From: Acidaminococcus hominis
GTDB taxonomy: Bacteria; Bacillota; Negativicutes; Acidaminococcales; Acidaminococcaceae
DNA: 48,942 nucleotides
Direction of reading: 5' to 3'
Assembly: GCF_900291475.1 (NCBI RefSeq)
Contig: NZ_OLMM01000005.1
Span: 931,135 to 980,076, forward strand
Numbering within the stretch: the first letter of the stretch is position 1; the number at the start of each line of letters is the position of its first letter. Shown here piece by piece: positions 39,608 to 48,386 of this stretch. The translations under genes and the position numbers were made by a program. The notes under the pieces were generated by a model that ran no database searches, was not told the origin of the DNA, and saw only the letters and a program-made list of their open reading frames with translations.

Positions 39608-39931
39608 ATGTACAGGGTCGACTTGAACACGAATGATATCACGATTACCAGGGGAGACAGTGCTGTCATTAAGCTGGCATTGGACAACAGCGACGGCACC
39701 CCATTTCAGTCCGGACCTAATGCCCAAGTGGAATTTCAGTGCTGCCAGGGCAGCAAAATCCTATTTCAAAGGAAAGTAAGGCAGGGAATCGTAACTTTGG
39801 TCCCGCCGGATACCAATGGACTAGCATATGGCATATACAACTATAAGGTTGTCGTGATTCAAAGTGATGGTAAACAGATCCCTGCTGTGAATGGGGCTAA
39901 ATTTATTGTGGAAGACGAGGTGACCTTTTAA
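39608..39931 (+). CDS. BppU-like beta-sandwich baseplate protein
   Basis: A 107-residue protein: DLNTNDITITRGDSAVIKLALDNSDGTPF...YGIYNYKVVVIQSDGKQIPAVNGAKFIVEDEV. This is the stand-alone form of the fold seen at the N-terminus of the 38057 protein, and occurs beside fibres in Firmicute phages. It overlaps the fibre start by one base. Confidence 0.72.
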   Translation: MYRVDLNTNDITITRGDSAVIKLALDNSDGTPFQSGPNAQVEFQCCQGSKILFQRKVRQGIVTLVPPDTNGLAYGIYNYKVVVIQSDGKQIPAVNGAKFIVEDEVTF

Positions 39932-40902
39932 TGAGTGATGCAATCAACGGGACTCTGAGCACAACGTTTGTGGACGCCCCGGACGATGTATATACGGCCA
40001 AAACATATGCTACGGCGGCAATCAACGCTGCAACTGCGGCCAGCAAATCGGCAGGAGCTACTTCTGCCAGTGAAAAGGCAGCGGCAACTAGCGCCAGTGC
40101 AGCGGCTGCCAGCGCCAGTGCGGCCAAAGCATCCGAGACGACAGCCACGAACAAGGCCTCTGCAGCGGCGTCCAGTGCGTCCGCGGCAAAAACTAGTGAA
40201 ACCAATGCGGCCAGCAGTGCCAGTGCGGCCAGTGCCAGCAAAGACGCCGCGGCTACATCAGCCAGCAATGCTGCATCCAGCGCTGATGCCATTGCAAAAA
40301 AGTGGGGAACGCTGGCTGCTGTGGCAACCTCTGGCAGTTATAAGGATTTAGGGGATAAGCCAACAATCCCATCAAAAACGTCTCAATTAACCAATGACAG
40401 CCGTTATGTGGCTACGGATACTGAAGGAAATGTTACCTTATCTGGCACTTTGACGGCCACCAAAGTTTACAATGCAGTCTATAATGACTATGCAGAATTT
40501 TTCCCAAGGGCTAGGGGTGCCATTACGGAAACGGGAGATATTATTGCCTGTGATGATTCCAGTACCAGGGAACAGTACGTCAAGGCTACTAATCAGAGCA
40601 AATGCATAGTAGGTGTTCAAACTGAAGAATTTGCACAAATCATTGGTGGTCTACAGGTACCGGACGGAATGGATATTCTGGATTACAATCTCCCTTACTA
40701 TATTCCGATAGCCCTGGCTGGCCGTGTCCATGTGAAATATGTGGGGAAGGCGATAGTAGGAACTAAAGTCGTAGTATCTTCTGCCCCTGGGGTTGGCCGT
40801 GCCTGGCAGGAAGGGGATCCAGATGACCAAGTGGTAGGGGTTATTGTCCAGCCGGATACCCTTGAAAGCCAGAGATTGGTGAAAATCAAAGTAAGGAGAT
40901 AG
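39931..40902 (+). CDS. Tail fibre with Ala/Ser repeats and peptidase G2-like end
   Basis: A 323-residue fibre. Residues about 28-130 are an Ala/Ser/Thr coiled coil (repeats such as AASASAAKASETTATNKAS) like the phage fibre-2 repeats of lambda Stf. After KKWGTLAAVATSGSYKDLGDKPTIPSKTSQL the C-terminal part has YNDYAEFFPRARGAITETGDIIACD, the pattern of peptidase G2-type self-cleaving chaperone domains. It stands just before the radical SAM gene (2-bp gap), so fibre and modification genes are translated together. Confidence 0.82.
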   Translation: MSDAINGTLSTTFVDAPDDVYTAKTYATAAINAATAASKSAGATSASEKAAATSASAAAASASAAKASETTATNKASAAASSASAAKTSETNAASSASAASASKDAAATSASNAASSADAIAKKWGTLAAVATSGSYKDLGDKPTIPSKTSQLTNDSRYVATDTEGNVTLSGTLTATKVYNAVYNDYAEFFPRARGAITETGDIIACDDSSTREQYVKATNQSKCIVGVQTEEFAQIIGGLQVPDGMDILDYNLPYYIPIALAGRVHVKYVGKAIVGTKVVVSSAPGVGRAWQEGDPDDQVVGVIVQPDTLESQRLVKIKVRR

Positions 40903-40904
40903 TT

Positions 40905-42017
40905 ATGGGGAATTTTTTAAGAAGAGAGATAGGGACGATTTTCATTATGCTGGGAAATTCCTGTAATATGCACTGCAAATATTGTCTTCAGCACCCTTTG
41001 GTGGAGCGTGGGTTAACTGGACACATCAATCCAGATATTTATCCTTTTATAGAGCAGGTGGCAGAAGAGAACGGCCCTGATCATCCTTTGTGGCTACATT
41101 TTTTTGGCGGTGAACCGTTAATTTATTTTTCCGCAATACAAGAAATAGTATCCAAAACGAAATGGTTAAAAAATGTTCGGTTCAGTACTATTACAAATGG
41201 GAAAGCTATCACTCAGGAAATGGTGGATTTTTTTAATGAGAATGATTTTCATGTGGCTGTCTCCTGGGATGGAAAAAACGTACGAGATACCCGGGGCTAT
41301 GATGTTTTTGCTCCAGGGAGCCGGACCCGAGAATTGCTGTTCCAGTTGGATACATTGAATGTGTGTGCGGTACTTTCATCCATGACTTATCCCCAGGATT
41401 GCTGTGACGCTTTTCAGTCTTTGAGTAAGGATTATTTTGATATCCACGGATATCCTCTAACTTTTGGATTTGATCCCATCCTTGATACTGGACTGGGGGA
41501 TAAAAGCTTGGTGGATATGGACTTCGACCGGGTAAGCCAGGAAGTAGCAGTCATAACAGAACGATACATGAAGTTCCGAACAGAGGGCGCTGAAATGAAA
41601 ATAGCAGAGCGGGCTTTTATGGAACCTATTTTCAGCAACCTGCAAAGAGTAAACCAACCAGAAAAGAAAATATGGAACCGACAGTACTGCCCTTGTGGGA
41701 ACGGATACAATATTTTGAACATGGATTTGGCTGGAAACTTATACCATTGTCACAATGTGAGCCAGAAAAGCGGTAGTATTTACACTCCGTATTTTCAATA
41801 TTTGAATGAAGTATTAAAGCATGAGACTACATTCAGCAGGCGAGAAAAGTGCATGAAATGTCCAGCCATGTTGTACTGCAGAGGTGGCTGTAAGCTGGTT
41901 CAGAATAAGGATATGGAAAGCGGGATGTGCAGGCTTCGAAAGGCTATTTTCCAACCGGTACTGGATGCAGCTATTGCCTATGGGAAAAAGGTCATGGGAG
42001 GCAAAGATGGGTGCTAA
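40905..42017 (+). CDS. Radical SAM/SPASM peptide maturase 1, prophage-encoded
   Basis: A 370-residue radical SAM enzyme. The SAM-cluster motif is C20-x3-C24-x2-C27 (SCNMHCKYC), followed by the FFGGEPLIYF SAM-binding motif. A full SPASM domain closes it: C-x-G...GNLYHC (G-x4-C), CMKCPAMLYCRGGC (C-x2-C-x5-C-x3-C) and a final GMC, enough for two auxiliary clusters. SPASM enzymes modify RiPP precursors. It begins the cassette, with AAGGAG upstream, and the first cysteine-rich gene starts 11 bases before its stop. The DNA is visibly more AT-rich than the tail genes. Confidence 0.92.
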   Translation: MGNFLRREIGTIFIMLGNSCNMHCKYCLQHPLVERGLTGHINPDIYPFIEQVAEENGPDHPLWLHFFGGEPLIYFSAIQEIVSKTKWLKNVRFSTITNGKAITQEMVDFFNENDFHVAVSWDGKNVRDTRGYDVFAPGSRTRELLFQLDTLNVCAVLSSMTYPQDCCDAFQSLSKDYFDIHGYPLTFGFDPILDTGLGDKSLVDMDFDRVSQEVAVITERYMKFRTEGAEMKIAERAFMEPIFSNLQRVNQPEKKIWNRQYCPCGNGYNILNMDLAGNLYHCHNVSQKSGSIYTPYFQYLNEVLKHETTFSRREKCMKCPAMLYCRGGCKLVQNKDMESGMCRLRKAIFQPVLDAAIAYGKKVMGGKDGC

Positions 42018-42288
42018 TGGGACTATTACGAAAACGTCCTGGACAACAGTGGCCAAAGAGGAAAAAGTTGTTGTATCCCATATCAGTGAGATTCAGGCTG
42101 CTATTGCCAAACTGGAAGGATACGCAAAAAATGTGGATAATTGTGGCTTTACCAATTACTGCCAAACCTGTCAGAGCGTAACCTGCCAAAGCGTCACTTG
42201 CCAGGGCTGCCAAGGCTGTCAGCGCTGCCAAAGCTGCCAAAGAAACTGTAGTAATTGTTCCGACTGCGACCATGGAGACGATAGCTGA
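42007..42288 (+). CDS. Cysteine-rich CQ-repeat protein 1, candidate SPASM substrate and tail-tip protein
   Basis: A 93-residue protein. The N-terminal part holds TKTSWTTVAKEEKVVVSHIS and then EIQAAIAKLE, which follows the tail-fibre attachment pattern (kTxW...aSxLxxIxxAIxxLE). The C-terminal 45 residues have 12 Cys, eight in CQ dipeptides, with a duplicated SVTCQ unit and CQGCQGCQRCQSCQ, ending in acidic DHGDDS. GGAGG stands five bases before the ATG. No signal peptide or transporter motif is seen. The paralogue follows at once. Substrate role is inferred from the neighbouring maturases. Confidence 0.85.
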   Translation: MGANGTITKTSWTTVAKEEKVVVSHISEIQAAIAKLEGYAKNVDNCGFTNYCQTCQSVTCQSVTCQGCQGCQRCQSCQRNCSNCSDCDHGDDS

Positions 42289-42593
42289 TGGAAAAGGGAG
42301 ATATTATTCTAAAAAAGACTATGACAGATGCCCAGAGTGCTGTGGTGAATGTGGCGACAGGTATGAAGAAAACGGACCAGCTAAATGGACTGGCTGCGGC
42401 TGCCTATTCAAATATCACCGCATCTGACTTGCAAGCTATTGAAACCGCCATCAATAACCTGGAAACCAGTGCGAGCGGAAACTGCTGCCAGAGCAATTGT
42501 TGCCAAACTTGCCAAACGAGCAGGTGCCAAACTTCCAGATGTCAATCCTGCCAGAGCTGCCAGTCCCAGAGTTGCCAGTCACAATGCAAATGA
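42288..42593 (+). CDS. Cysteine-rich CQ-repeat protein 2, candidate SPASM substrate and tail-tip protein
   Basis: A 101-residue paralogue of the previous protein. The helix SNITASDLQAIETAINNLE is nearly the textbook fibre attachment motif ('ITAxDLNxIExAI'). The tail of about 38 residues has 11 Cys: two CC pairs, a duplicated TSRCQ unit and CQSCQSCQSQSCQSQC. The start codon overlaps the stop of protein 1 (TGATG), giving equal expression. It aligns with protein 1 as S-x-[IL]-x2-I-x2-AI-x2-LE before the Cys region. Confidence 0.85.
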   Translation: MEKGDIILKKTMTDAQSAVVNVATGMKKTDQLNGLAAAAYSNITASDLQAIETAINNLETSASGNCCQSNCCQTCQTSRCQTSRCQSCQSCQSQSCQSQCK

Positions 42594-42602
42594 GGAGGAA
42601 CG

Positions 42603-43019
42603 ATGATCATCAATGGTAAAGTCTTGACAAATCAAGGGCCAGTCCCCATAGAAAATGTAAAAGTCGGGGATATGGTCATTAACTTGAACAACAGGCCAGA
42701 TGAAGTTTTGACTATTGAAGAACAAACAGCTCAGGAGATCCTACGATTTAAGGATAATCCCGGGCTTTTGGTTTCTAAGGACACCGTAATTGCTACACGG
42801 TATGGGAAACTGGAAGGAAAGAGCGTTACAAAGCCTACCAGGGCTTGTATGCTTTATCAGGCCGAAGCTCCATGTTATTGGGATACCGTCACGCCTGACA
42901 AAGCGGAACAAACTATGAAGGGGTATGTTATTACTCTGAAAAATGGCCACGGAATTTTTGTGAATGGTTATGGAATTTGTAACCAGGAGGAAACCCATGC
43001 TGAAAGTACTGTGGAATGA
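42603..43019 (+). CDS. Degenerate Hint (intein/hedgehog-like) domain protein
   Basis: A 138-residue protein that reads like one Hint fold: GKVLTNQGPVPIENVKVGDMVINLNNR (block A), LLVSKDTVIATRYGKLEG (block B position) and GYVITLKNGHGIFVNGYGICN (blocks F/G). The residues needed for splicing are absent: Met stands where the nucleophilic Cys/Ser should be, the block B His is replaced, and the usual terminal HN is CN. So it is probably a non-catalytic Hint fold or a decayed one. GGAGG precedes the ATG. It overlaps the next gene by 23 bases. Confidence 0.6.
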   Translation: MIINGKVLTNQGPVPIENVKVGDMVINLNNRPDEVLTIEEQTAQEILRFKDNPGLLVSKDTVIATRYGKLEGKSVTKPTRACMLYQAEAPCYWDTVTPDKAEQTMKGYVITLKNGHGIFVNGYGICNQEETHAESTVE

Positions 43020-43839
43020 AGATGCTCAGGTGCCTAGAGACAGAGGCAGCCTGAAGCTGTCCTTTGACGGGATGTATGTCAAAGCAGAAATCCTTGATAA
43101 CACTGGCAATCTCTTAGGCTTTGATGTGGTTAGGGCTTTGCGCTCCTATGCGTCCTATGTACTGGTACATAAAGAGTATGGAACCGTGAAGGCCTTCCGG
43201 AAAATTCATAAGAGTGACTACAAATTTCTGGATCTAAGTCGATTGGGTGTTGATATCCGAATGGATTTTGCTGATATCATCCAATTATATAGCGACTATG
43301 CTGTTCTGCAAATTGATACGGGCATCATCAGCCCAACTAAACAGGATATAGTCGTGAGGGTCTTCCGTGTTCATAAAGATGAAATTCAGGTGGATGCTGT
43401 CGGTGGGTATGAATTTGCCCCATATTCCAGCAAGGCACTGGAAACGGGTGATCATCCCCGTTTCCATTTGTGGGACAGCTATGCACTTGAAGTGAATGGC
43501 AGGATGCTGAAAGCCAATAGAAAAGGATTGGTTATGGATGGAGATTTCGTTACCCCTATTGAGAGCCCATCCGATCATCCTGACTATATTGACTTGGTGA
43601 TCCATAAATATCAGGGCAACTTTGATGGGGATGCGCTTACCCGTGAGGAAGACTGTGAAGAAGTCATGATACAAAGTAGCGCCGGCTTGCTGAATGCCAC
43701 CAGGGTACGGCTGGATCATGGTATGGCAAAAGTCAGACTGTATCCTTTTGGATTTACTGGAGAAATCAAGATAAAGCTCGGACGGCGCTGGTATGAAGTA
43801 TGGAATGAGTATAACTTGATTCTGGGGGCGAGTCAATGA
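42997..43839 (+). CDS. Cassette protein of unknown function, beta-rich
   Basis: A 280-residue protein with AGGAGG seven bases before the ATG at 42997. Alternating hydrophobic residues suggest mainly beta structure; there is no membrane segment, signal peptide or known catalytic motif. Features: FDGMYVKAEILDNTGNLLGFDVVRALRSYASYVLVHKEYG at the start and GFTGEIKIKLGRRWYEVWNEYNLIL at the end. It overlaps maturase 2 by four bases, so it probably works with the maturases or is a structural partner of the Cys-rich proteins. No family recognised. Confidence 0.7.
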   Translation: MLKVLWNEDAQVPRDRGSLKLSFDGMYVKAEILDNTGNLLGFDVVRALRSYASYVLVHKEYGTVKAFRKIHKSDYKFLDLSRLGVDIRMDFADIIQLYSDYAVLQIDTGIISPTKQDIVVRVFRVHKDEIQVDAVGGYEFAPYSSKALETGDHPRFHLWDSYALEVNGRMLKANRKGLVMDGDFVTPIESPSDHPDYIDLVIHKYQGNFDGDALTREEDCEEVMIQSSAGLLNATRVRLDHGMAKVRLYPFGFTGEIKIKLGRRWYEVWNEYNLILGASQ

Positions 43840-44816
43840 AACAGGTGACGATTTATTTGGGCAGCCACTGCAATCTTCAATGTCCTTACTGCCATAGACA
43901 GGCGGGCGCCGATGAACAGAAAGGGCTTCCGGCAGATTTTTTTGCGCGGCTGCAGGCATTACAGAAAGACGGGCCCCTAAAGGTAAAATTCATGGGAGGA
44001 GAACCTACACTATATTTTTCTACGGTCCAAAAAGTCGTACAAACGGTCCCCAAAGCACATTTTGCGATTGCTACCAACGGAGTGGATTTAGATAAATACC
44101 TGCCATACTTCAGGCAGCATGACTTTTTGTTGTGCCTAAGTTATGACGGCGCTCCCCTTGATGTGAGGGGTCATGACCCTCTTAGTCACTTGCTGGATTA
44201 TCCTAAACTGGCAATCTCTACAACGATATACCACGGGAATACAGACTTTAGAGCAATTCTCCAACGGTTCGCTGAAAAAGAAAAAGTTATTGGCCGTCCT
44301 CTGGGCTTTTTCCCCCATATTGTCCATCATACAGCCCAGGACAATGCCCCCTATGCATTGACCCATGAGGATTACCAACTAATTCTAAGACAATGGAAGG
44401 AACTGATTTTAGAGCTACTAGATGGATATAACAAGGACATTATCAATTGGGCTTTGGTGCCTCTTTTTCGAGGACTCTTTGAGCGGTTGGAAGCAAATTA
44501 TCAATATGGCGAGACCTATTGTGTGCATAGAGGCTTAGAAAAGGTAGGCCCTGATGGGAAGCCGGTCAGCTGCTTATATATCAGAGACTTACATCTGACA
44601 AGCAGATGGCTGGAAGAACAGGCGGCACTGATTGATTATATGTTTCCTAAATGCAGAAAATGCCCCGTGTATGGAATGTGTGGTGGAGGCTGTCACAAAA
44701 GCTTGGATCATGAGCTTGAATGTGGTTTTTATTTCGACCTCTATTCCTGGTTTCAGAACCTGGCAGACAAGAAATCCGTCATTTGGAGGCTGGGAGATGC
44801 GATTGATCAATTGTAA
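43836..44816 (+). CDS. Radical SAM/SPASM peptide maturase 2, prophage-encoded
   Basis: A 326-residue radical SAM enzyme, start overlapping the previous stop (ATGA). Motifs: C12-x3-C16-x2-C19 (HCNLQCPYC), KFMGGEPTLYF, and a SPASM end with YCVHRGLEK...GKPVSC (G-x4-C), CRKCPVYGMCGGGC (C-x2-C-x5-C-x3-C) and ELEC. It is clearly related to maturase 1 in plan but much diverged and shorter, so two steps or two substrates are likely. The next cassette gene starts 20 bases before its stop. Confidence 0.9.
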   Translation: MKQVTIYLGSHCNLQCPYCHRQAGADEQKGLPADFFARLQALQKDGPLKVKFMGGEPTLYFSTVQKVVQTVPKAHFAIATNGVDLDKYLPYFRQHDFLLCLSYDGAPLDVRGHDPLSHLLDYPKLAISTTIYHGNTDFRAILQRFAEKEKVIGRPLGFFPHIVHHTAQDNAPYALTHEDYQLILRQWKELILELLDGYNKDIINWALVPLFRGLFERLEANYQYGETYCVHRGLEKVGPDGKPVSCLYIRDLHLTSRWLEEQAALIDYMFPKCRKCPVYGMCGGGCHKSLDHELECGFYFDLYSWFQNLADKKSVIWRLGDAIDQL

Positions 44817-45480
44817 AATTGTGATATTTCCCAATGCTATTCCTCGGTGTAAGGGGGAAAAACTGACTGTTGACCTGTTGCCAGATGGGGCCGGACTGGC
44901 TATTGATTATTGTGGAGAAAAACACCAAATCAGATTTGATGCTTTGGAAAGCCAAACATCTACCATATATGTGGTTGGCCAGTCAGGAAGTATGGTTTTA
45001 TTTAACTTCCGGGAATTGCTTACGGTATTTGGTATGACGCCTACACAATTTCTTGCAGCATTTCATCTTCGTGGCTTCATACAGATTGATAAAACCAGGA
45101 GGGGTGTGTTCACTAAAATCTTCTGCTTTAAGGGGTGCCGGGATCCGGACAGCACTGTAACGGATTGGCGCCGATATGATCATGAAAAGAATGAGGACCT
45201 TCATTACGTAGACCGAAAATATTCCTGGGCATTCATACCATATCGTATCCGAAAAGAAAATGACCGCCTATTGATAACAGGCCGTCTGTGGCAATCAAAA
45301 CTGTGGAAGGATGAACCCTTATACTTTAATCATGGGGGACAGGCTGTACGGTTGAATCCTGGGGTAAATCATATAGATCTGGTTTATGTTCCAGGGGAAC
45401 AGGCCTATGTGGGAAATATTCGGTCCAGGTATGTGGGCAGAATGATAGACTTGGGAGCGAAAAAGTGGACGAAATTCTAA
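44797..45480 (+). CDS. Cassette protein of unknown function, C-terminal member
   Basis: A 227-residue protein starting MRLINCKIVIFPNAIPRCKGEK; GGAGG stands eight bases before the ATG at 44797 and the start lies inside maturase 2. The frame is open further upstream but those codons shadow the maturase. Beta-rich N-terminus, a helix FNFRELLTVFGMTPTQFLAAFHL in the middle, and a basic, aromatic C-terminus (GRMIDLGAKKWTKF). No known motif. Its last bases overlap the first lysis-side gene, tying the cassette to the late operon. Confidence 0.68.
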   Translation: MRLINCKIVIFPNAIPRCKGEKLTVDLLPDGAGLAIDYCGEKHQIRFDALESQTSTIYVVGQSGSMVLFNFRELLTVFGMTPTQFLAAFHLRGFIQIDKTRRGVFTKIFCFKGCRDPDSTVTDWRRYDHEKNEDLHYVDRKYSWAFIPYRIRKENDRLLITGRLWQSKLWKDEPLYFNHGGQAVRLNPGVNHIDLVYVPGEQAYVGNIRSRYVGRMIDLGAKKWTKF

Positions 45481-45788
45481 AATTTTTCATTGAAGCGATT
45501 GTGCCGGCCGTGGGCGGGTATCTTTGGGGGCAATGCCGCACTTATAGAGACAAGAAGAAGGCGGCGGCAGAGGAAGACCGGCTAATCAAAAAGGGACTGC
45601 AAAGTCTTTTGAGATATGAAATGCTGCAGGCTTATCAGGCTCATATCATGATGGGATATGCTGCACCTGATGATAAAGGGTCTTTTGAGGCTATGCATGC
45701 ATCTTATGCCGGCCTGGGTAAAAATGGAGTCATGGACAAAATTTATCAGGAGTTTATGGCATTGCCAGATATCGAAGTGAGAAAATGA
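45465..45788 (+). CDS. Phage lysis-module protein, possible holin-associated
   Basis: A 107-residue protein with a GTG start (GGGAG seven bases upstream). One N-terminal hydrophobic helix (ILKFFIEAIVPAVGGYLWG) is followed by charged residues and a soluble end KGLQSLLRYEMLQAYQAHIMMGY...YAGLGKNGVMDKIYQEFMALP. This layout is frequent just before holin and endolysin genes in Firmicute phages, usually left unnamed. Confidence 0.68.
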   Translation: MDEILKFFIEAIVPAVGGYLWGQCRTYRDKKKAAAEEDRLIKKGLQSLLRYEMLQAYQAHIMMGYAAPDDKGSFEAMHASYAGLGKNGVMDKIYQEFMALPDIEVRK

Positions 45789-46150
45789 CCATTTTACAGC
45801 ATGTTCAAAAAGCATTGCGAAAGGTGGACCGTATGAGCGTTCGAGGACTTCCTCGGGCGCTTATTTTATTGCTGATCTCCCTGGTGCTGCTGATTTTCTT
45901 TTTATACGTTGCCGGCTGGGTTTACCTTTGGAGAGCCCAGGGCAAGGTGGACCTGCCTGCCCTGAAAGAGTTGCTGGTAACCATGACTGGCATGCAATTT
46001 TTAGCAGGGTTCGGTATGCTGATCAAATGCCTGTATGACAGAGACAAGGATGGGGTACCGGATCCTTTTGAGGAGGGACAATCTAATGTTACGAGAAATC
46101 CAGTTTCAAAGATCCAAACAGAAAATGTTCGCGATGAACGAAAAGTATGA
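45785..46150 (+). CDS. Holin candidate
   Basis: A 121-residue protein with one strong membrane segment (LILLLISLVLLIFFLYVAGWVYLW, about 26-49), a second weaker one (MTGMQFLAGFGMLIKCLYD, about 68-86) and a charged C-terminus. It stands directly before the L,D-transpeptidase-like gene, as holins precede lysins. ATGA overlap with the previous gene. Confidence 0.6.
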   Translation: MTILQHVQKALRKVDRMSVRGLPRALILLLISLVLLIFFLYVAGWVYLWRAQGKVDLPALKELLVTMTGMQFLAGFGMLIKCLYDRDKDGVPDPFEEGQSNVTRNPVSKIQTENVRDERKV

Positions 46151-47757: not shown

Positions 47758-48000
47758 TGCTGGCTGGTCCTTAGCGAGGAATTTCCTGCGCAGGCTGAAC
47801 TAGCACAGTTGATGCAGATCTACTGAGAAAATGTTGACATATACAGAATTGGTTAATAAGTACCAATGAACCGGGGAAATAATGTATAATAAAAGTGGAA
47901 AATGGAATTATTCTGAAAGAATTATAGGAAATAAGGTAGTTTATAATGGAACTATGAATTAAGACAACTTCGAAACTATTTCTTAATGTGAATCTCGTGG

Positions 48001-48011
48001 TATACTGGAGG
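48001..48011 (+). promoter_or_regulatory. IS3 transposase -10 and ribosome site
   Basis: TGGTATACT (47998-48006) is an extended -10; no good -35 is seen. GGAGG (48007-48011) and AAGGAG (48024-48029) serve two stacked ATG codons (48018 and 48039). Confidence 0.4.
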
Positions 48012-48038
48012 CGATCAATGAAAAAGGAGATAATCATC

Positions 48039-48386
48039 ATGTCACGCACGCGCCGTCATTTCACGTCGAAATTCAAATCCGATCTCGTCATCGAGCTGCT
48101 CAAGGGTGAGAAAGACCTCAACACGCTGGCGGCTGAGAACGAAATCCTGCCGAACCTCTTGCGGAACTGGAAGAACGAGTTTCTCAGCAAGGCAAGCATC
48201 ATATTCGATGATTCCAGAGAGGACAACCTCAATCAAAAACTCGAGACCGAGCGGAAGGAGAAAGCCTCCTATGCCCGCAAAGTTGGCCAACTCACCATGC
48301 AGGTGGATTGGTTGAAAAAAAAATCTGAGGAAATTCTTGGACCGGACTACGAGAAACAGTATTCTCCAAAACCTTTCGAGGAGTGA
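48039..48386 (+). CDS. IS3 family transposase OrfA
   Basis: A 115-residue DNA-binding subunit: HTH RRHFTSKFKSDLVIELLKGEKDLNTLAAENEILPNLLRNWKNEF followed by a leucine-zipper-like helix (LTMQVDWLKKKSEEIL). MSRTRRHFTSKF is the usual start; the ATG at 48018 would add seven residues. A run of nine A (48315-48323) near the end is a possible frameshift site. OrfB follows directly. The left inverted repeat should lie between about 47940 and 48000 but cannot be fixed without the right end. Confidence 0.9.
   Translation: MSRTRRHFTSKFKSDLVIELLKGEKDLNTLAAENEILPNLLRNWKNEFLSKASIIFDDSREDNLNQKLETERKEKASYARKVGQLTMQVDWLKKKSEEILGPDYEKQYSPKPFEE

Follow-up and report, generated by a model that had tools for sequence, protein, structure and literature searches.

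The window, meaning the whole stretch of 48,942 nucleotides analysed here, contains a prophage of the contractile-tail type from the genus Acidaminococcus, and this prophage holds a seven-gene cassette flanked by a tail fibre gene and putative lysis genes. The features discussed below are as follows:

39931..40902, + strand: tail fibre gene immediately upstream of the cassette (PHROGs tail-fibre matches)
40905..42017, + strand: rSAM1, radical SAM/SPASM maturase of 370 aa (phrog_1802, 4.5e-33)
42007..42288, + strand: Cys-rich protein 1, 93 aa with 12 Cys, proposed substrate with a CQ-repeat tail
42288..42593, + strand: Cys-rich protein 2, 101 aa with 11 Cys, proposed substrate with a CQ-repeat tail
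42603..43019, + strand: stand-alone Hint-like protein of 138 aa (Pfam Hint_2 below cut-off; structure-profile matches)
42997..43839, + strand: fifth gene, companion protein, predicted to be mostly beta (start ATG at 42997; alignment and structure model)
43836..44816, + strand: rSAM2, radical SAM/SPASM maturase of 326 aa, the second in the cassette (PF04055, 1.2e-8, over cut-off; phrog_1802, 2.7e-23)
44797..45480, + strand: seventh gene, beta-rich, 227 aa, kept in 20 of 21 cassettes, no role assigned
45465..45788, + strand: first gene past the cassette (phrog_4105, function unknown)

The ORF coordinates confirmed the original prediction of seven tightly packed genes running in the same direction, with neighbours overlapping by 1-23 bases or spaced by 9 bases. 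The tail fibre ends at 40902 and the first ORF past the cassette starts at 45465. Sheath, tape measure, baseplate and fibre genes lie upstream in the window, placing the cassette inside a phage tail block, and tape-measure or tail matches were also obtained for 7 of the 9 proteins tested from sister loci. The cassette had further been placed between fibre and lysis genes. While PHROGs supported the fibre side of this claim, the identity of the lysis side was left without a match at 1e-3 for the two downstream ORFs tested. The holin/lysis labels of the downstream genes are our presumption, as are those of the integrase and repressor, and we refer to the lysis genes as putative because that label is presumptive and rests on synteny. 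Of 8 sister loci, 6 have a relative of the ORF at 45785-46150 on their downstream side. A terminator scan returned 17 terminator-like sites vs 7.8 expected from shuffles; those inside the cassette were weak and all within genes, leaving the predicted lack of terminators plausible, albeit unproven.

The CxxxCxxC motif and seven SPASM cysteines were invariant in 9-member alignments of both rSAM1 and rSAM2, bearing out the claim that both maturases carry complete motifs. Family libraries returned nothing more specific than 'radical SAM' for these enzymes. The top NCBIfam model was the PapB ranthipeptide maturase for rSAM1 (1.8e-32) and rSAM2 (6e-14), in each case below cut-off, and the same model ranked first for 6 of the 8 other maturases tested. 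Like the PapA/PapB ranthipeptides (freyrasin; NF047865), the proposed system combines a SPASM radical SAM enzyme with a Cys-rich core and Asp beside Cys. In contrast to that family, the window enzymes failed the PapB equivalog model by a wide margin (NF047865, 340 bits; rSAM1 112.9 and rSAM2 52 bits), so the reaction may differ. In addition, the CxxxCxxC motif of rSAM1 starts at residue 20, leaving no space for an N-terminal recognition domain, and the proposed substrate is the end of a phage tail protein with no ABC exporter seen, whereas that of PapB is a free peptide.

The nearest solved structure to rSAM1 by sequence profile was 5wgg (5.1e-28), which we take to be CteB. This match and a Cys-rich substrate are shared with the SCIFF maturases, but the SCIFF model failed its threshold (TIGR03974, 75.1 of 425 bits), and SCIFF carries six Cys in 45 residues, as opposed to 11 in the last 45 residues of the window proteins, which lie in a phage tail context. 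Sulfatase maturases were also close (4k36, 7.6e-18, by structure profile; TIGR03942 in NCBIfam). The QHNDH maturase QhpD is a radical enzyme whose Cys-to-Asp/Glu crosslinks are made in a structural subunit of a protein and not in a natural product. It offers a parallel in acting on such a subunit, but its substrate belongs to a bacterial enzyme, not a virion, and has no repeats; its model gave 87 of 453 bits (TIGR03906). The CXXX-repeat radical SAM model TIGR04115 was absent from the best 25 of the 58 and 60 models for the window enzymes. A search of named phages with rSAM1 and rSAM2 gave matches of ~20-29% over most or half of their length, and two gut contigs matched in the rSAM search (L054 and L055) contained mostly bacterial genes.

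Cys-rich protein 1 consists of a Cys-free N-terminal region followed by a CQ-repeat tail with the end NCSNCSDCDHGDDS, and each of the two Cys-rich proteins has 11 Cys within its last 45 residues, arranged in CQx/CQxx repeats. Neither these proteins nor the products of the fifth and seventh genes had a significant family match in the family libraries. The description of the Cys-rich proteins as tail-fibre-like consequently lacks homology support, although the relatives of these proteins and tail-region proteins from sister phages have a C-terminal signature in common. Two sister cassettes are without the small Cys-rich genes, and there tail-region proteins carry the Cys tails (for example NCNCDCDCDCDCGDDS). 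A conserved GTYTLxxLLQxLVNxSHTH-like stretch precedes the tail in the sister phages, and other phage groups have different sequences at this position. Cys tails elsewhere are mostly Cys-Asn/Cys-Asp alternations, to which the window adds Cys-Gln repeats; we know of no precedent for CQ repeats, the main type in the window's Cys-rich proteins. A division of labour, one enzyme for CQ and the other for C[ND], was considered and abandoned, since C[ND]-only tails also occur with two enzymes (L038 and L053). A single rSAM gene was present in the available stretches of L040 and Achromobacter phage 2-1, and maturase count does not follow repeat type.

The cassette recurs. In the 21 fifth-gene loci fetched, rSAM1, the Hint-like gene and rSAM2 were always present and the seventh gene was missing from one only; these loci include this phage's own record (L180) and several near-identical ones, the order differs in L193, and L189 is cut off ahead of the seventh gene. 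Pattern matching recognised a Cys-tail ORF in 20 of the 21, and in the remaining one it was recognised by eye. The nearest long upstream ORF was a relative of the window fibre in 18 of 20 loci tested, and it is the C-terminal part of the fibre that travels with the cassette. No ABC-transporter-like ORF was detected by a motif test in the 21 stretches. The original prediction had noted no exporter gene in the cassette, and the outcome that would have counted against it, cassettes lying mainly away from phage tail loci and beside transporters, did not materialise in the loci tested.

A forward scan of viral contigs for Cys tails yielded at least 120 stretches, and the 115 loci new to the scan were counted. 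Among the matches listed, an rSAM gene was present in 66 of the 80 loci whose C[ND] repeat was C-terminal and in 3 of the 35 other loci, all three carrying the same S74 fibre. Ser-pattern controls had an rSAM gene in 1/120; this control was not fibre-matched, a C-terminal Ser repeat occurring in only 9/120, and some of the tested loci contributed to the seed of the enzyme HMM. For the clustering, strand and downstream counts, four loci in which an S74 domain follows the repeat (L082, L110, L128 and L146) were added by hand to the C-terminal 80. Among the matches listed, the rSAM gene was on the same strand as the tailed gene in 69/69 loci and downstream of it in 68, and in 16 of these 68 no more than 50 bases separated the maturase start from the end of the tailed gene. 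Where at least 2.5 kb of downstream sequence was available, 61 of 64 listed loci had an rSAM gene, and the tailed ORFs of the other three were only 21-53 aa long. The 84 tailed proteins among the listed matches fell into 22 clusters, 17 of them with rSAM.

The reverse scan, from maturase to tail, gave at least 600 stretches, of which 583 were confirmed and the best 80 used. Eleven of the 80 were excluded for having less than 4 kb upstream (3 of them tailed). Of the 69 loci retained from the best 80 of 583, 61 had a tailed ORF upstream, 2 more had a tail with Hint (63/69), and 6 had no recognisable tail; Ser-control windows gave 0/98. PHROGs assigned 9 of 19 tailed proteins tested to tail or tail-fibre families, some on the strength of collagen-like repeats, and left 10 without a tail assignment, two of which matched a head-decoration family. 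Genes resembling 2OG oxygenases adjoin some maturases. The system is present in the cultured phages JWF, whose maturase is annotated as a sulfatase maturase, and 2-1. One tailed protein of G004 used as a query had no match in the phage collection. A bacterial-phylum search for the repeat matched 3/398 genomes; in four 3-kb stretches from this search the repeat did not lie at the end of a fibre and radical SAM ORFs were not seen, which gives no evidence of a chromosomal version in those stretches.

The Hint-like protein scored below cut-off with Pfam Hint_2 (2.4e-4), and profile matches to 2lwy (6.1e-5) and the gp41-1 intein (2.7e-4) supported the Hint fold. The catalytic N-terminal Cys is missing at the Hint start in this protein and 8 relatives, whereas the fused Hint of Achromobacter phages retains it. 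In some phages, Peptidase_S74 (from residue 130) or Hint (from residue 306) lies immediately behind the Cys tail, and cleavage by such a self-cleaving domain would expose the tail. The cassette shares a Hint-fold protein with these phages but encodes it as a separate gene without the catalytic Cys. A Providencia phage has a similar Hint-ended protein with neither a Cys tail nor an annotated radical SAM gene in the stretch, indicating that Hint ends exist apart from the system.

With moderate confidence, and on profile comparison alone, the fifth gene appears remotely similar to a gene that some unrelated phages carry between the tailed fibre gene and the rSAM gene. Because the first profile test used proteins chosen by a pattern resembling the expected answer, it was repeated unselected. 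Of the 43 sequences in the repeat, some of them radical SAM proteins, 5 scored 33-79% (one, from L114, being of the window's own family) and the rest scored at most 19%; shuffled copies scored at most 3%. The model of the fifth protein (pLDDT 78.9) has a putative C-terminal Ig-like domain at residues 156-280 (intimin, GH2-type Ig; Z ~8.5, borderline per the tool's note). The seventh protein was modelled at pLDDT 85.6, and its fold search gave no match at E 0.001 or better.

Taken together, these findings make it probable that the cassette is a phage-encoded maturation system for tail-fibre tips, in which SPASM enzymes modify, most likely by thioether crosslinking, fibre C-termini or small tip proteins. 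The linkage of tails and maturases was observed in both directions and in unrelated as well as sister phages with Cys-tailed fibres, supporting the earlier idea of a virion-linked, RiPP-like system tied to the tail; the chemistry, presence in virions, hardening and function are inferred from sequence. No mass spectrometry or virion data exist for this explanation, and the window's Cys-rich proteins are without fibre homology, both of which count against it. Other weak points are the shortfall from the PapB cut-off, the mainly CQ-type repeats, the mismatch between maturase count and repeat type, the maturase loci without a recognisable tail, the tailed proteins without a tail assignment and the partial seeding of the enzyme HMM from tested loci. 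The enzymes would recognise the stretch ahead of the Cys tail, abstract side-chain hydrogens by radical chemistry, and join cysteine sulfur to carbons of neighbouring Asn/Asp, perhaps Gln. The accessible portions of two reports provide precedent: PapB links Cys to Asp across zero to six intervening residues (PMC9413430), and NxxcA contains a Cys-Asn thioether (PMC8326336). The product, formed during assembly, would be a compact thioether-crosslinked cap at the free C-terminus, where the fibre ends distally. In this phage the two small proteins carrying the tail would attach to the fibre or tail tip, and self-cleavage would expose the tail where a Peptidase_S74 chaperone or Hint domain follows. 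A likely use would be contact with the receptor or penetration of the envelope by a tip that is rigid and redox-stable.

The same substrates might undergo another chemistry, with Cys oxidation, epimerisation or C-C links replacing thioethers. Sulfatase maturases, which oxidise Cys, are near by both searches above, and the JWF enzyme is annotated as one; modification of every other residue also fits the strict two-residue alternation, and alternating Cys-Asn could become an alternating L/D strand. We nevertheless consider this unlikely, if worth keeping in mind, since the top matches are thioether maturases (PapB, and presumably CteB) and the Asn/Asp beside Cys are known thioether acceptors. 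Alternatively, the tails may bind a metal or iron-sulfur cluster in the fibre tip while the radical enzyme has a different target close by. The CxC/CxxC spacing is typical of metal sites and metal-binding fibre tips are known, the HxH iron sites of T4 gp37 being one, but the reciprocal pairing of tail and maturase in both search directions, and their close spacing in 16/68 listed loci, render this improbable.

We likewise see very little room for prophage cargo in the form of a secreted RiPP bacteriocin or lysis-time toxin. Small Cys-rich proteins with SPASM enzymes do look like RiPP clusters, and several rSAM RiPPs are antimicrobial; however, the 21 stretches lack ABC-transporter-like ORFs by motif, the cassette lies behind the fibre in loci tested, and other phages fuse the tails to large tail fibres. 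Finally, the enzymes could be auxiliary or host-takeover functions merely stored in a variable host-recognition region near the fibres, as the 2OG oxygenase-like genes beside some maturases might suggest. According to the part of PMC7029224 available, two pelagimyophages differ here by radical SAM cassettes in the tail-fibre region, with no substrate, tail motif or function proposed in that part. Storage of this kind is hardly credible given that the Cys tail itself predicts rSAM and that Ser-pattern contigs, albeit not fibre-matched, rarely carry it.

A radical SAM system for tail proteins was not found described in the open-access literature (subscription journals and preprints lay outside the search), nor in the accessible portions of PMC9959647, PMC3899368, PMC7029224, PMC10783043, PMC9413430 and PMC8326336. 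It is conceivable, though we would not yet rely on it, that a class of tailed phages (gut Negativicutes prophages, Achromobacter phages and uncultured environmental phages) bears a covalent polycyclic fibre-tip cap that dedicated radical enzymes build on Cys-Asn tails. Such a cap may link fibre chains, or may form a strand, thioether-bonded or of alternating chirality, able to insert into the host envelope or lock onto it.

Antibiotics, signals and enzyme cofactors are known settings of radical SAM peptide chemistry, and to our knowledge no radical-enzyme machinery devoted to virion proteins has been recognised before. If the proposed maturation system is real, a dedicated radical system, widespread and directed at virus particles, would start a new chapter in the study of how virions mature. 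It would explain the radical SAM, and some 2OG oxygenase-like, genes found beside phage tail fibres, and would provide many genetically encoded crosslinking enzymes whose natural substrates are fused to proteins. Since the system is present in the cultured phages JWF and 2-1, the proposal is testable now, and host recognition by many uncultured phages would become testable in turn.

The prophage in the window carries genes matched by PHROGs families for terminase, major head protein, contractile-tail sheath, tape measure, baseplate and fibre. From reading the sequence, we take further ORFs to be integrase-like and repressor-like, and an ORF just downstream of the prophage (47988-48386) presumably encodes an IS3-type transposase subunit. 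The original prediction placed seven tightly overlapping genes behind the fibre, and these were indeed found in a single direction between the fibre gene (end at 40902) and an ORF at 45465, with overlaps of 1-23 bases or a 9-base gap between neighbors. The SPASM domains described as complete are present in both radical SAM enzymes, rSAM1 (40905-42017) and rSAM2 (43836-44816). Cys-rich 1 (93 residues, 12 cysteines) and Cys-rich 2 (101 residues, 11 cysteines) each have 11 cysteines within the last 45 residues, mostly as CQ repeats. Another gene encodes a stand-alone Hint-fold protein, and the fifth and seventh genes matched no known family in the family libraries.

In a family-level search of 59 genomes, seven besides this one had relatives of rSAM1 at 40-62% identity, and one of the seven had two. 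Using the fifth gene, found in 9 of 380 genomes of the class (this one included), as bait, we fetched 21 loci (7 from bacterial genomes and 14 from viral contigs), of which one is the record of the window phage itself and several are near-identical. rSAM1, the Hint-like gene, the fifth gene and rSAM2 are present in all 21, with rSAM2 split over two ORFs in L191 and rSAM1 standing last in L193; the seventh gene is present in 20, the L189 stretch ending before its position. Co-occurrence with tail fibres, suggested earlier as a check, was borne out: a relative of the window fibre was the nearest long upstream ORF in 18 of 20 loci tested, abutting rSAM1 17 times and lying 620 bases off once. The most distant locus (G302, L324) has a protein with a Cys-rich C-terminal tail, the fifth gene, rSAM2, the seventh gene and, as second enzyme, one like rSAM1. 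In the window phage the tape measure is 612 residues long and a sheath gene is present; tape measures of the sister loci span 911-1186 residues and are mostly best matched by a different PHROG. Given these differences, transfer of the cassette and the fibre end between different phages is probable, the sisters' tail type not being established.

Two sister cassettes, in genomes G035 and G012, are without the small Cys-rich genes. Tail-region proteins just upstream of the cassette end in NCNCDCDCDCDCGDDS and NCNCDCDCGDDSGGP in G035, and one ends in NCNCDCNCDCGDDTGS in G012; small Cys-rich proteins elsewhere have a signature of this kind at their end, CNCDCNCNCSDDS. It is also found in other sister phages on a tail-region ORF of 207-327 residues, after a conserved stretch like GTYTLRRILQELVNRSHT. 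Since signatures of one kind end both tail-region and small Cys-rich proteins, the Cys tail is, judged by sequence, a portable C-terminal element borne by fibres or by small separate proteins.

Viral contigs were scanned for DNA coding C[ND] repeats, with S[ND] repeats as the control. Among the matches listed, a radical SAM ORF was found in 69 of 115 Cys-repeat loci, compared to 1 of 120 serine loci, and in 66 of the 80 listed loci with a C-terminal repeat versus 3 of the 35 others. These three exceptions are one fibre seen three times, with an S74 self-cleaving chaperone after the repeat. The control was not fibre-matched (the repeat was C-terminal in only 9 of 120 loci, none of these 9 with a radical SAM enzyme), and part of the loci tested had served to seed the enzyme HMM. 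In the listed loci, the enzyme was on the same strand as the repeat in 69 of 69, downstream in 68 and within 2.5 kb in 62. The 80 C-terminal cases, together with four S74 cases added by hand, gave 84 tailed proteins from the matches listed; with at least 2.5 kb of downstream sequence, 61 of 64 had a radical SAM enzyme, and the three without, ORFs of 21-53 residues, look like chance. The 84 form 22 sequence clusters, 17 with an enzyme and cluster 0 alone having 36 members; they are therefore not one phage counted repeatedly. In one viral locus (L064), a 79-residue tailed protein with the end HTHIFFDDYSTACNCNCNCNCTRGIL is followed downstream by four radical SAM ORFs.

One family is made up of ten tail-linked enzymes; most have 444-488 residues, their identity to the first member is 34-64%, and the seven SPASM cysteines are invariant. 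A profile of this family gave at least 600 matches in viral contigs; 583 were confirmed and the best 80 analyzed. Among these best 80 of 583, 69 loci had 4 kb upstream: 61 carried an ORF on the same strand that ends in a CxCxC tail, in two more a Hint-like 'CFPLDT' start comes after the tail, and six (L361, L368, L375, L376, L386 and L408) had no recognizable Cys tail within that distance. No CxCxC-tailed ORF was found on either strand of 98 serine-control windows. On the opposite strand, 6 of the 69 loci had a tailed ORF; five of these are nearly identical at their ends and are apparently antisense readings. Many of the best 80 are closely related to the query, so the 69 loci do not amount to 69 independent cases.

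Comparison of 19 tailed proteins with PHROGs assigned nine to tail or tail-fibre families, some of these matches depending on collagen-like repeats, and two to a head-decoration family (1.3e-9 and 1.2e-4), with no informative match for eight. Within the phage collection and at the limits used, Achromobacter phages 2-1 and JWF were the only named phages to match the large enzyme family. Their fibre reads NCNCDCNCS or NCNCDCNCNCS and then directly CFPAGT, with which a Hint domain begins; Pfam places Hint at residue 306, immediately behind the Cys tail. Two genes on from the fibre comes the radical SAM gene, and a lytic enzyme lies shortly beyond it. In viral locus L082, Peptidase_S74 likewise begins (residue 130, Pfam) immediately behind the Cys tail. 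Cleavage at the Hint or S74 start, itself inferred, would place the Cys tail at the mature C-terminus. Providencia phage PSTNGR1 (L323) has a tail-region protein with a Hint-like end and no Cys tail, and no radical SAM gene is annotated near it.

The product of the fifth gene consists mainly of beta structure and has an Ig-like domain at its C-terminus (Z about 8.5); the tool warns that such a match may reflect nothing more than a common arrangement. Similar ends occur in unrelated phages on proteins encoded between the tailed fibre and the enzyme (group profile 95.7%). These were chosen by pattern; in an unselected repeat, 5 of 43 scored 33-79% and, leaving out the window's own family, none of the others exceeded 19%. 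From these profile comparisons, a shared fifth-gene-like companion is likely for some phages and is not shown for all. In some environmental phages, 2OG-Fe(II) oxygenase-like genes separate the tailed fibre from the radical SAM gene; PF13759 matched below cut-off in three of four tested:
L063, 4836-5552, 2OG-Fe(II) oxygenase-like, PF13759 below cut-off
L127, 3837-4478, 2OG-Fe(II) oxygenase-like, PF13759 below cut-off
L058, 4609-5304, 2OG-Fe(II) oxygenase-like, PF13759 below cut-off
Their products could hydroxylate Asn or Asp of the tail. In L111 and L081, the gene after the tailed fibre presumably resembles a QueC-type enzyme; in L111, aminotransferase-like and transporter-like genes also precede the radical SAM gene.

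PapB was the best NCBIfam model for rSAM1, rSAM2 and six of eight other maturases, always far below cut-off, and by profile the solved structure closest to rSAM1 is 5wgg, which we take to be the SCIFF maturase CteB. Membership tests place the system outside both the PapB-type RiPP systems and SCIFF, although it probably works like them. Among known enzymes of this type, PapB joins Cys to Asp and tolerates zero to six intervening residues (PMC9413430), and NxxcA joins Cys to Asn (PMC8326336). Because Cys adjoins Asn or Asp in every C[ND] repeat, analogy with these enzymes suggests thioether links in the tails. For CQ repeats, as in the window, we know of no precedent.

In the open-access literature, no account of radical enzymes that act on phage tail proteins was found. 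The nearest remark, in PMC7029224, is that radical SAM cassettes distinguish the host-recognition regions of two pelagimyophages. Taken together, the link in phages between Cys-tailed proteins, often tail fibres, and SPASM radical enzymes is well supported, and the most economical reading is that these enzymes modify the Cys tails, with thioether chemistry and a function at the tip being inferences. In the literature that could be searched, neither the substrate class nor the context nor the likely purpose has been described, and for this reason we rate the system, within that scope, as new in kind.
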